Shown here piece by piece: positions 11,763 to 51,258 of a DNA stretch of 64,000 nucleotides (position 1 is its first letter; each line of letters begins with the position of its first letter). The notes under the pieces were generated by a model. That model had not been told where the DNA came from. It saw only the letters and a program-made list of their open reading frames with translations, and searched no databases. Source of the stretch: Microbacterium oxydans. GTDB taxonomy: Bacteria > Actinomycetota > Actinomycetes > Actinomycetales > Microbacteriaceae. Where the stretch lies: positions 744,001 through 808,000 of the forward strand of contig NZ_JYIW01000026.1 in assembly GCF_000956525.1 (NCBI RefSeq), in the 5' to 3' direction. Position numbers and translations under genes: made by a program.

Positions 11763-11768
11763 TACGCT
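11763..11768 (+). promoter_or_regulatory. -10 hexamer TACGCT, leaderless oxygenase gene
   Basis: TACGCT, 6 bases, then ATG 11775. This supports the internal ATG over the longer open frame. Confidence 0.5.
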
Positions 11769-11774
11769 CGGGAC

Positions 11775-12782
11775 ATGGCCGCTGAACTCTCGCTCCCCAT
11801 CCTCGACCTCTCGAAGCTCGACGACGGCCCCGAGGCCGCCGCGCAGTTCCGCGACGACCTCCGGGCCGCGACGCACGACGTCGGGTTCTTCTACCTGACG
11901 GGCACCGGGATCTCCCCCGAGCTCGAGGCCCGCCTGCATCAGGCGGCGCTCGACTTCTTCGCGCTGCCGGAGGAGGACAAGCTCGCGATCGAGAATGTGA
12001 ACAGCCCCCACTTCCGCGGCTACACGCGCATCGGCGGCGAGCGGACGCAGGGCCAGGTCGACTGGCGCGAGCAGATCGACATCGGCCCGGAGCGGGAGGC
12101 CGTCGAAGGCGGACCCGCGTTCAACCGGCTCATCGGCCCGAACCTCTGGCCGGAGGCGCAGCCCGAGCTGCGCGACGTGGTCGCCGAGTGGCACGCCACG
12201 CTGTCCGAGGTCGCGCGCAAGCTGCTCCGCGCATGGGCACAGACGCTCGGCGCGCAGGAGACCTACTTCGACGAGCACTTCGGCGACCCGTCGACGTTGA
12301 TCAAGATCGTCCGCTACCCCGGCACGCACGAACCGGAGCCGCAGCAGGGCGTCGGCGCGCACAAGGACTCCGGCGTGCTGACGCTGCTCTGGGTCGAACC
12401 GGGCAAGGGCGGGCTGCAGGTCGAACGCGACGGCGCCTGGGTCGACGCTCCCCCGGTCTCCGGCGCCTTCGTCGTGAACATCGGCGAGCTCCTGGAGTAC
12501 GCGACCGGCGGCTACCTCAAGGCGACCAACCACCGCGTCGTGTCACCGCAGGCTCCGAACGAGCGCATCTCGATCCCGTTCTTCTTCAACCCCGCACTCG
12601 ACAAGCGCCTGCCGCTGATCGATCTGCCGGCGGAGCTCGCGGCCGAGGCCAAGGGAGTCACGGATGACCCTGGCAACCCGATCCACGCACTGTACGGCGA
12701 GAACGCGCTGAAGTCCCGCTTGCGCGCGCACCCCGACGTCGCCGCGATCCATCACGCCGACCTCGTCGGCGCCTCCGCCTGA
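11775..12782 (+). CDS. 2-oxoglutarate/Fe(II)-dependent oxygenase, isopenicillin-N-synthase-like
   Basis: A 335-residue protein of the IPNS/2OG-Fe(II) superfamily. The DIOX_N part (about 5-120) is followed by the jelly-roll domain with the HxD iron ligands in GAHKDSGVLTLLW, the distal His in ATNHRVVSP, and the RxS 2-oxoglutarate motif in ERISIPFFFNP. Substrate is unknown. ATG 11775 fits the TACGCT-N6 rule; the frame upstream is non-coding in composition. It is divergent from efeUOB. Confidence 0.88.
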   Translation: MAAELSLPILDLSKLDDGPEAAAQFRDDLRAATHDVGFFYLTGTGISPELEARLHQAALDFFALPEEDKLAIENVNSPHFRGYTRIGGERTQGQVDWREQIDIGPEREAVEGGPAFNRLIGPNLWPEAQPELRDVVAEWHATLSEVARKLLRAWAQTLGAQETYFDEHFGDPSTLIKIVRYPGTHEPEPQQGVGAHKDSGVLTLLWVEPGKGGLQVERDGAWVDAPPVSGAFVVNIGELLEYATGGYLKATNHRVVSPQAPNERISIPFFFNPALDKRLPLIDLPAELAAEAKGVTDDPGNPIHALYGENALKSRLRAHPDVAAIHHADLVGASA

Positions 12783-14151: not shown

Positions 14152-14421
14152 TTATCGGCGAAGACCCAGGCGTTCGATCAGCGAGCGGTAGCGCGCGATA
14201 TCGATGTCCTGGAGGTAGCCGAGCAGACGACGGCGCTGACCCACCATGAGGAACAGACCACGACGCGAGTGGTGGTCGTGCTTGTGCTCCTTGAGGTGTT
14301 CGGTGAGGTCCTTGATGCGCTGCGTCAGCATTGCGACCTGCACCTCGGGGGATCCGGTGTCACCGGGGTGCGTCGCGTACTCTTCCATGATCGCCTTCTT
14401 GGCGTCAGACTCGAGTGGCAT
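14152..14421 (-). CDS. rpsO: 30S ribosomal protein S15
   Basis: An 89-residue protein, the normal S15 length. It contains the conserved [15 protein letters not shown] and the helix-rich [21 protein letters not shown] that binds 16S rRNA. It is monocistronic here: a terminator follows, and pnp, its usual neighbour, is not adjacent. AAAGGGGATC provides the ribosome site. A possible promoter lies about 60-85 bases upstream. Confidence 0.98.
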
Positions 14422-14584: not shown

Positions 14585-14590
14585 TACGCT
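14585..14590 (+). promoter_or_regulatory. -10 hexamer TACGCT upstream of the MFS leader ORF
   Basis: TACGCT, exactly 6 bases, then GTG 14597. Transcription should begin on or next to that GTG. Confidence 0.45.
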
Positions 14591-14596
14591 CGAGAC

Positions 14597-14623
14597 GTGC
14601 AGGACATCGGAATCGACGAGTGA
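14597..14623 (+). CDS. Possible leaderless 8-residue upstream ORF
   Basis: GTG CAG GAC ATC GGA ATC GAC GAG TGA would encode MQDIGIDE. The GTG is at the predicted transcription start, and the TGA overlaps the MFS start codon in the arrangement GTGA. It may couple translation of the exporter. The peptide has no obvious regulatory codon run. It could be chance. Confidence 0.35.
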   Translation: MQDIGIDE

Positions 14624-49229: not shown

Positions 49230-49235
49230 TAGTTT
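49230..49235 (+). promoter_or_regulatory. -10 hexamer TAGTTT, leaderless trpL
   Basis: TAGTTT, 6 bases, then the leader-peptide ATG 49242. Confidence 0.45.
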
Positions 49236-49241
49236 CGGCCC

Positions 49242-49277
49242 ATGCTCGCGAACTTCACCTGGTGGCCCGCCTCCTAG
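49242..49277 (+). CDS. trpL: trp leader peptide
   Basis: An 11-residue peptide, MLANFTWWPAS, with two adjacent Trp codons. It sits at the 5' end of the predicted transcript. Its last codons form the first arm of a pause hairpin, CCGCC-TCCTA-GGCGG (49267-49281). Ribosome stalling at the Trp codons would favour the antiterminator. Confidence 0.85.
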   Translation: MLANFTWWPAS

Positions 49278-49304
49278 GCGGTGTGTTCGCGTTCCCACGA
49301 ATCC

Positions 49305-49328
49305 AGACCGCCTCCGGGGCGGTCTTTT
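49305..49328 (+). terminator. trp attenuator terminator
   Basis: AGACCGCC pairs with GGCGGTCT (loop TCCGG), followed by TTT. The alternative antiterminator pairs GGCGGT (49277-49282) with ACCGCC (49307-49312). Confidence 0.85.
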
Positions 49329-49365
49329 CGTTGAGCCGAGCCGGAGCCCTGCACAGGAGACATCG

Positions 49366-51258
49366 ATGACCCCCTCACGACTCGCCGAGCTCAGCCATGA
49401 CCCGGACGCCTCGTTCGTCCTGATCGCGCGCGACGGCGCAGACACCGTCGAGCTGCTCACCGGCGACGTCATCGACGTCGACCTGCTCGCCGACATCCCG
49501 CTGACGATCGACGGAACCCCGCGCGAGGTCTTCTCCCTCGTCCCCTACCGACAGGTGCGCGAACGCGGATTCGTGGCGCAGGACGACGGCGCACCGCTGC
49601 GCTGCTTGGTCGTCGACGAACACCTCCATCTGCCCACAGGCGAACTGCTCGCCGAGCTGCCGACCGCGTCGGTCCCGCTCCGCGACGCCGGCTTCGACAT
49701 CGCCGACGAGGAGTACGCCTCGATCGTCGAGACCGTGATCGCCGATGAGATCGGGCGCGGCGAGGGCGCGAACTTCGTGATCCGCCGCGATTTCACCGCG
49801 AACATCGATGTCGACGACCGCACGGCTGCGCTCACCTGGTTCCGAGCGCTGTTGACGCACGAGCGCGGCGCGTACTGGACGTTCGCAGTCTTCACGCCCG
49901 GTCACATCGCCGTCGGCGCGAGCCCGGAGGCGCACGTCGTGGCGCGCGAGGGCATCGTCACGATGAATCCGATCTCCGGTACGTTCCGGCATCCGGCCGG
50001 CGGGTCGACGCGCGAGACACTGGTCGACTTCCTCTCCTCCACCAAGGAGACCGAGGAGCTCTTCATGGTGGTCGACGAGGAGCTCAAGATGATGAGCGCC
50101 GTGTGCTCGGACGGCGGGCGCATCACCGGCCCGCATCTGAAGGAGATGTCCCGGCTCACGCACACCGAGTACATGCTGCGGGGCCGCAGCAAGCTCGATC
50201 CGCGCGACATCCTCCGCGAGACCATGTTCGCCCCCACGGTGACGGGCTCACCGATGCAGAACGCCTGCGCCGTCATCCGCCGCCATGAACGCGAACCTCG
50301 CGGCTACTACTCCGGCGTCGCCGCGCTGTTCACCCCGAACGCCGACGGCGGCCACGACCTCGACGCCCCGATCCTCATCCGCACCGTGTATCTCGTGGAC
50401 GGCGCACTGCGCGTGCCGGTCGGCGCGACGCTCGTGCGGCACTCCGACCCCCATGGCGAGGTCAGCGAGACGCACGGCAAGGCGGCGGGCGTGCTCGGCG
50501 CCATCGGAGCGATCGACCGAGACCGCGCAGCCGAAGCCCGCAGCGAGGCGGATGATCCGGACGCGCCGCGTGCCGCAGTCAGCCTCGCTGACGACCCCGT
50601 GGTCGCCGAACTGCTCGCATCGCGCAATTCCCGGCTGGCCGAGTTCTGGCTCAACCCACAGGGCGACGACGCCGCCGGTCGATTCGCCGGACGAACCGCG
50701 GTGGTCGTCGATGCCGAGGACCGGTTCACGACCATGCTGGCGCACCAGCTCCGACACCTCGGTCTCGCCGTCTCGATCGTCCCGTGGGATGCGGCGACGG
50801 ATGCCGAACTGGATGCTGCCGACCTCGTCGTGACCGGCCCCGGCCCCGGCGACCCGCGTGATCCGGAGAGCCCGCGCATCGCCCGCATGCGAGAGGCCGT
50901 CGCACGGCGGCTGGAGGCAGACGCCCCGCTGCTCGCGGTGTGCCTGAGCCATCAGATCCTCGCCGACCGGCTCGGCATCACGCTCACACCGCTCGACGCT
51001 CCGCACCAGGGCCTGCAGAAGTCGGTGCCGGTGTTCGGTGAGGATGCTTCGATCGGCTTCTACAACACCTTCACTGCCCGCGTCACCCCGGGGACCACGG
51101 CAGTCGACGGCGTCGAGATCTCAGCGGATCCGCTCACGGGAGACGTCTACGCACTCCGAGGGACGCACTTCGCATCAGTGCAGGGACACCTCGAGTCGAT
51201 CCTGTCGCGTGACGGCATCCGCACCCTCGAGCGGCTCGTCGAGCACGCGCTGCGCTGA
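49366..51258 (+). CDS. trpEG: Fused anthranilate synthase TrpE-TrpG (PhzE-like type)
   Basis: A 630-residue fusion. The chorismate-binding part (about 1-410) has MNPISGTFRHP, EELFMVVDEELKMM and LFAPTVTGSP-like ETMFAPTVTGSPMQ. The C-terminal glutamine amidotransferase (about 440-630) has nucleophile Cys526 in AVCLSHQ and His608/Glu610 in QGHLES. It makes anthranilate from chorismate and glutamine. The sequence is of the PhzE-like branch, but the Trp-codon attenuator upstream argues for tryptophan synthesis. AGGAG precedes ATG 49366. No other trp genes are nearby. Confidence 0.9.
   Translation: MTPSRLAELSHDPDASFVLIARDGADTVELLTGDVIDVDLLADIPLTIDGTPREVFSLVPYRQVRERGFVAQDDGAPLRCLVVDEHLHLPTGELLAELPTASVPLRDAGFDIADEEYASIVETVIADEIGRGEGANFVIRRDFTANIDVDDRTAALTWFRALLTHERGAYWTFAVFTPGHIAVGASPEAHVVAREGIVTMNPISGTFRHPAGGSTRETLVDFLSSTKETEELFMVVDEELKMMSAVCSDGGRITGPHLKEMSRLTHTEYMLRGRSKLDPRDILRETMFAPTVTGSPMQNACAVIRRHEREPRGYYSGVAALFTPNADGGHDLDAPILIRTVYLVDGALRVPVGATLVRHSDPHGEVSETHGKAAGVLGAIGAIDRDRAAEARSEADDPDAPRAAVSLADDPVVAELLASRNSRLAEFWLNPQGDDAAGRFAGRTAVVVDAEDRFTTMLAHQLRHLGLAVSIVPWDAATDAELDAADLVVTGPGPGDPRDPESPRIARMREAVARRLEADAPLLAVCLSHQILADRLGITLTPLDAPHQGLQKSVPVFGEDASIGFYNTFTARVTPGTTAVDGVEISADPLTGDVYALRGTHFASVQGHLESILSRDGIRTLERLVEHALR

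Follow-up and report, generated by a model that had tools for sequence, protein, structure and literature searches.

The window, by which we mean the whole stretch of 64,000 nucleotides from Microbacterium oxydans that was analysed, carries a compact arrangement in which a promoter-like hexamer, a reading frame of eight codons and the start of an exporter-like MFS transporter gene follow each other within 39 nucleotides, with the ribosomal protein gene rpsO on the opposite strand upstream (table 1). Six bases (14591-14596) separate the hexamer TACGCT from the GTG at 14597-14599, and the codons CAG GAC ATC GGA ATC GAC GAG lead from there to the TGA at 14621-14623, the stop being shared with the MFS start in a GTGA overlap. 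In this respect the letters confirm the earlier note, which had taken the TACGCT-N6 rule to point to GTG 14597 and had described the 8-codon ORF and its overlap with the transporter. The protein encoded downstream also matches, weakly, the model NF007792 of the enterobactin exporter EntS (E 1.5e-54, 185.7 bits), under the curated cut-off of 324 bits.

Table 1. Features of the rpsO-MFS region in the window, with the evidence for each
Feature	Position	Strand	Evidence or remark
rpsO (ribosomal protein S15), divergent synteny anchor	14152-14421	-	PF00312, E 3.8e-38
-10 element TACGCT	14585-14590	+	TANNNT in 68/68 window-clade loci; T, A and final T invariant
Predicted transcription start and first base of the leaderless start codon	14597	+	N6 spacing rule
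GTG CAG, as at the beginning of most DUF167 genes in this slot	14597-14602	+	
Leaderless 8-codon mini-ORF (VQDIGIDE and stop), proposed DUF167 stub and ribosome loader	14597-14623	+	Comparable in 68/68 clade loci
ATCGACGAG, possible remnant of a DUF167 3' end	14612-14620	+	Modal form GTCGACGCG
GTGA stop/start overlap of mini-ORF and MFS gene	14620-14623	+	
MFS exporter-like transporter (MFS_3 / EntS-like), 430 aa	14620-15912	+	PF05977, E 5.5e-35

The spacing on which this reading depends is a regular feature of the window, where TANNNT-N6-RTG is found 20 times against 4.7 expected from shuffles. Since 18 of these 20 sites open ORFs of at least 188 codons, the N6 spacing can be taken to mark gene starts here, and we infer that transcription at the locus begins at G14597. 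The two sites without a long ORF are that of the MFS mini-ORF and that of an 11-codon ORF at 49242, and coupled leaderless mini-ORFs account for one of the 20. Two places among these deserve a record in their own right. The 11-codon ORF (49230-49400, plus strand) is opened by TAGTTT-N6-ATG and encodes MLANFTWWPAS, with two adjacent Trp codons; on its 3' side lies a G+C-rich hairpin plus UUUU, ahead of a TrpE/TrpG-like fused synthase, so that the whole resembles a leaderless trp leader with an attenuator. At 11763-12782 (plus strand), TACGCT-N6-ATG gives a leaderless-spaced start (MAAELSLPILDL) inside a longer, mechanically called ORF for a 2-oxoglutarate/Fe(II) oxygenase-like gene, and the start of the longer ORF is probably unused.

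At E up to 1e-60 the MFS protein was matched in 38 of 58 relatives, and at E up to 1e-100 in 287 of 366 Microbacterium genomes. From among the matches listed we obtained 265 distinct loci, drawn from L001-L321 and representing part of the 287 genomes that have the transporter; identical loci were merged, and those with an MFS match not above 200 bits or with less than 100 nt upstream were excluded. All were classed by one script, according to which 71 loci have a DUF167 match upstream, 116 have a stub (a leaderless-spaced mini-ORF whose TGA overlaps the in-frame MFS start as RTGA), 73 are direct (a leaderless-spaced RTG in frame with MFS; the class includes L028-L030, from other genera) and 5 are none of these. 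The last group comprises L122, with a frameshift inside MFS, L299, with a TGATG overlap, L304, the mini-ORF of which ends on CTGA where relatives carry RTGA, and L317 and L321, which are without the motif. In L304 a coupled CTG start is possible. Where at least 900 nt of upstream sequence are present, a divergent rpsO precedes the locus in 41 of 43 cases of the DUF class, in all 38 stub loci and in 13 of 16 direct loci, the three exceptions among the latter being the loci from other genera. A Brachybacterium alimentarium contig (L375) bears an MFS copy that is 75% identical, which may reflect transfer or contamination.

Considering all the loci outside the DUF class, there are 192 TANNNT-N6/7-RTG sites at no more than 130 nt from MFS, of which 116 are RTGA-coupled, 73 direct, one of the TGATG kind and two different, namely L122, a direct start followed by the MFS frameshift, and L304 with its CTGA end. 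The presence of the overlap in 116 of 116 stubs is no test, because stubs were defined by it; the test is that only 2 of the 192 sites are neither coupled nor direct. Put in another way, 190 of the 192 promoter-spaced starts (191 if L122 is counted as direct) stand in a frame relation able to serve the transporter. The absence of internal stops is weak evidence, for an earlier stop occurs in each of the two other frames in only 16 of the 116 stub loci.

On a tree of the MFS proteins the window falls in a clade of 68 tips (support 85), all of Microbacterium and not independent of each other. In every one of these loci the promoter-spaced RTG opens an ORF of 7 (60 loci) or 8 codons (8 loci) that ends in the RTGA overlap. 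The spacer is N6 in 66 loci and N7 in two (L008 and L052), the one-base insertions of which fall outside the ORF, while lengths within the ORF vary by whole codons; the TG of the start is as invariant as the three promoter bases listed in table 1. The encoded peptides vary, for instance VQDIGIDE, VQKKFDE, MHDRHAA and VTERSVE, and share little past the first codons. This variation bears upon the idea that the ORF encodes a regulatory leader peptide, an attenuator or stalling uORF that would sense an amino acid or a drug and thereby control the output of MFS. A short ORF before an exporter-like gene invites such a thought, and uORFs sensing ribosome-targeting antibiotics are known in E. coli, according to the accessible part of one account (PMC12121999). 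Besides the 68 divergent peptides, what speaks against it is the window leader itself, the first 84 nt of which have no unusual folding stability (z 0.88), since 163 of 200 shuffled versions equal or exceed it. With no common regulatory codons and an ordinary folding of the window leader, we rejected an attenuator peptide at this locus and consider regulation by the peptide very improbable.

A different kind of upstream neighbour is found in other members of the genus. Nine of the 138 first loci are without a promoter-spaced start within 200 nt of MFS, and all nine have a gene of the DUF167/YggU family just upstream of the transporter (TIGR00251 for L013), frameshifted in L116. Two of the 71 DUF-class loci are in fact remnants (L236 and L297), leaving 69 of 265 with DUF167. 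In 63 of these 69 the gene is predicted to be leaderless and overlaps the MFS start (60 as RTGA, 3 as TGATG), its length being 73 codons in 53 loci, 74 in five, 76 in two, 77 in two and 89 in one. The other six are the frameshifted L116, L237, which runs off the edge of its contig, and four loci in which the coupling has been lost (L133, L166, L287 and L295): DUF167 is kept, complete or (in one) partial, without overlapping MFS, and a new, separate coupled leaderless ORF of 9-11 codons (e.g., VRRAFRMPR) lies between the two genes. Within the genus, DUF167 (PF02594) is present in 74 of 366 genomes. No match to it was found in the window genome, and a relocation of the gene elsewhere in that genome was discarded on this ground. 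Outside the genus, one family record (L184) also has DUF167 divergent from and adjoining rpsO. Two draft genomes combine the forms: G273 (79% complete) has a stub (L064) together with DUF167 on another contig, and in G023 (83% complete, 500 contigs) the transporter gene is duplicated, the first copy following a stub (L006) and the second a DUF167 gene (L142). Both are suspected to be mixed assemblies.

The distribution of these forms was followed on a FastTree tree of one gene, built from 263 MFS proteins (L165 and L168 were omitted for their short MFS reading frames). Loci with DUF167 are scattered over this tree and define 37 loss clades if the gene was never regained, or 35 when nodes with support under 70 are merged; unordered parsimony gives at least 26 state changes. 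Pairwise distances of DUF167 and MFS agree over 63 loci (Mantel r 0.587, reached in 0 of 999 permutations), which argues against frequent re-acquisition of the gene. The coupled mini-ORF is present in 24 of the loss clades. In the group of 110 tips that includes the window (support 100), the first branch is that of L116, the DUF167 of which starts with VQYTVRV; with L116 removed, the resulting loss clade of 109 tips has a support of 38, and this value slightly lowers our confidence in the best explanation.

How would ribosomes reach the MFS start? The best anti-SD duplex there has an energy of -3.6 kcal/mol in the window, against -9.3 to -13.1 kcal/mol at three neighbouring starts that we took as leadered. 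Over the 116 stub loci the mean is -4.03 kcal/mol, as compared with -4.28 kcal/mol for shuffles, so that no SD signal rises above shuffles in this class, which suggests that stub MFS starts would have little independent initiation. The DUF-class loci are intermediate (mean -7.03 versus -6.04 kcal/mol for shuffles, 66 loci), and in these a weak ribosome site may add to the coupling. Such values are relevant to the most ordinary reading of the locus, according to which transcription begins near 14597, the ribosome binds a short leader of 23 nt and GTG 14620 is used without any prior translation; the mini-ORF would then be incidental, RTGA being a common start context. A leader of 20-23 nt suffices for a ribosome site, and GGA lies eight bases before GTG 14620. 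An incidental ORF, however, is unlikely to keep its RTG at the predicted transcription start and its overlap frame in 68 of 68 loci, or to recur in 24 loss clades, while the energies of the stub loci are just those of shuffles. We rejected SD-driven direct initiation as the main route for this last reason, and regard the short-leader reading as a whole as improbable.

The architecture put forward in the earlier note, a leaderless mini-ORF joined by RTGA to a transporter with a weak ribosome site of its own, to which it would deliver ribosomes by termination and reinitiation, is instead in keeping with what the relatives show. Conservation extends to the start, the frame, the length class and the overlap but spares the peptide, the stub loci have no SD signal above shuffles, and the arrangement recurs in 24 loss clades; the weakness of the site is borne out by the energies in the window and in the stub class, and the conservation of length and overlap, which that note had offered as a check, is what the window clade displays. 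The delivery of ribosomes would then be the most plausible function of the ORF. The further conjecture of the note is that such an exporter could respond to drugs or to initiation-factor levels.

Where did the mini-ORF come from? The relatives contain a graded series of DUF167 remnants, in which both the leaderless spacing and the RTGA overlap have persisted. Their lengths are 31 codons in L272 (VQHSPRLRPSSRVGPL...), 26 in L236 (VQITVRVTPGARRGP...), 24 in L297, 21 in L258, L112 and L118, 11 in L288 (VKCTVRVGIVE) and 8 in L283. The nine remnant loci that were scored resemble the DUF167 start over codons 2-6 with p 0.0066 or less. For the window stub the same comparison gives p 0.0085 over codons 2-3 and p 0.0409 over codons 2-6. 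The second codon CAG, moreover, is found in 51 of 58 scored DUF167 loci of the tree, as opposed to none of 22 leaderless-spaced ORFs of at least 150 codons in the window. At the other end of the ORF, the score of ATCGACGAG against the DUF167 tail is attained by 1 in 970 of the 9-mers that precede RTGA in the window, the site itself being included in this count. Parsimony reconstruction at the root of the window clade gives ATGCAG[GT]AC for the first nine bases, which matches GTGCAGTAC, the start of the DUF167 relative L116, and GCT[CG][AC]G[CG]AG for the tail, which has no clear DUF167 match; tail homology as proof of descent is weakened by this second result. On the branch of L010 and L093 a DUF167-like start is in frame with MFS itself (VQFSRGHLID). 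A derivation of the stub from this direct form was considered and disfavoured, as a matter of argument only, for the stub clade is longer by some 20 bases and has its MFS start coupled, neither of which is seen in the direct form.

The other possible source is a loader created anew, from a promoter and a chance RTG, with no contribution of DUF167. The coupled ORFs that stand beside a retained DUF167 in L133, L166, L287 and L295 are of the kind that such an origin would produce. Across the 191 scored loci (116 stub, 73 direct and 2 short remnants), codons 2-3 are DUF167-like at p < 0.01 in only 35 and codons 2-6 in only 23, and only 6 of 35 loss clades have CAG or CAA as the second codon in half or more of their members. 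Against a new origin in the case of the window stand the reconstructed start of its clade, with its match to DUF167, and the 21-codon remnants L112 and L118, belonging to the same weakly supported loss clade, which keep the VQY/VQC start and the VEVDA tail. The element AGTCTAYC adds to this, for it lies upstream at similar median distances from the leaderless start in the DUF class (53 of 66 loci, median 75), among the stubs (109 of 116, median 73) and in the direct class (54 of 73, median 68). Hence we judge a new origin of the window stub to be unlikely, although less so than the short-leader reading, and we infer its descent from DUF167. Both the decay of DUF167 and the new origin of mini-ORFs would seem, from the comparison of these loci, to occur in the genus, and the existence of the latter route makes it more credible that selection acts on the coupling itself.

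The stubs have a lower limit in length. Among the 116 loci, 66 have 7 codons, 14 have 8, six have 9, one has 10, nine have 11, five have 12 and two have 13, and longer stubs are those of 15 (two loci), 16 (one), 18 (two), 21 (six), 22 (one) and 31 codons (one). None of the 116 is shorter than 7 codons, even though the script is able to list shorter ones, as it did in L030, where an ORF of a single codon stands at N5 spacing. These overall counts are dominated by the big clade, but the shortest stub has at least 7 codons in each of the 24 loss clades. The stop of a 7-codon ORF would lie about where the upstream mRNA track of the ribosome reaches the 5' terminus, and a floor at this length might perhaps mean that at termination the mRNA between the 5' end and the stop is exactly long enough to occupy that track. 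It could be, then, although we hold this to be somewhat short of an even case, that a coupled leaderless gene, once its protein is no longer required, shrinks to about 7 codons and no less, selection for the neighbour maintaining its start codon, frame and stop.

Taking the evidence together, we think it probable that the mini-ORF is a leaderless ribosome loader for MFS, most likely the collapsed remnant of a lost DUF167/YggU gene. The mRNA would start at G14597, and a ribosome would begin on the 5'-terminal GTG, translate the eight codons, terminate on the TGA at 14621-14623 and restart on the overlapping GTG 14620 of the transporter. What would matter is the start, the frame and the stop/start overlap, and not the peptide. 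The ancestral gene, of about 73 codons, would have lain between rpsO and MFS, leaderless and GTGA-coupled as it still is predicted to be in many relatives, before being lost in the lineage of the window.

If this is correct, the locus amounts to a natural experiment, in which one transporter gene behind rpsO is preceded by a full upstream gene, by graded stubs or by none. It would lend evolutionary support to leaderless short ORFs as ribosome loaders, would explain why the peptides of such loaders need not be conserved, and sets a lower limit, open to experiment, for the length of a leaderless ORF from which reinitiation can occur. It also carries a warning, namely that vanishing genes can leave behind parts of the expression machinery of their neighbours.

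The class of mechanism, a coupled leaderless ORF that delivers ribosomes, is already known. Mycobacterial small ORFs of this type were reported to start on RTG, to encode 5-50 residues and to overlap the next gene as TGA/RTG (RTGA), the coupling being over-represented (p < 0.0003) and one case retaining its architecture while the peptide is not conserved, as presented in the portion of the paper available to us (Shell et al. 2015, PMC4633059). The mini-ORF of the window has the length and overlap of that class, with eight codons (7-31 over the 116 stubs) and a GTGA overlap. The evidence differs, since for the mycobacterial cases, in the available portion, 5' ends had been mapped and ribosomes profiled in two species, whereas ours is a prediction from promoter spacing. 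Many leaderless short ORFs are translated in the tuberculosis bacterium, and most of them are without purifying selection on codons, according to the accessible text of Smith et al. (2022, PMC9094748); here, too, the codons are not conserved, but start, frame and overlap are. With regard to termination-reinitiation, NTGA is the commonest overlap, and a short upstream ORF has been proposed to deliver the ribosome to its neighbour, in the accessible sections of a recent review (Brown and Wade 2025, PMC12548453); the GTGA of our locus is an overlap of this type, while those sections connect the process neither to gene decay nor to a first start that is leaderless. Short leader ORFs with no product of their own have likewise been suggested to increase, through reinitiation, the expression of the gene that follows (Korolev et al. 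2016, PMC4833913), but the leader genes in the available part of that study do not overlap the structural gene, have a peak at 10-11 bp and are not leaderless starts. In a literature search conducted largely without subscription papers and preprints we found no paper in which a gene decays until a coupled leaderless ORF is left, nor one in which a full gene, a stub and a direct leaderless start alternate at a single locus. It is in these two aspects that our results depart from the mycobacterial precedent, the accessible part of which describes no origin by gene decay: in another genus and over 265 loci, a full gene, a stub and a direct leaderless start replace each other before the same transporter, and the origin of the loader that this suggests, from DUF167, is new.
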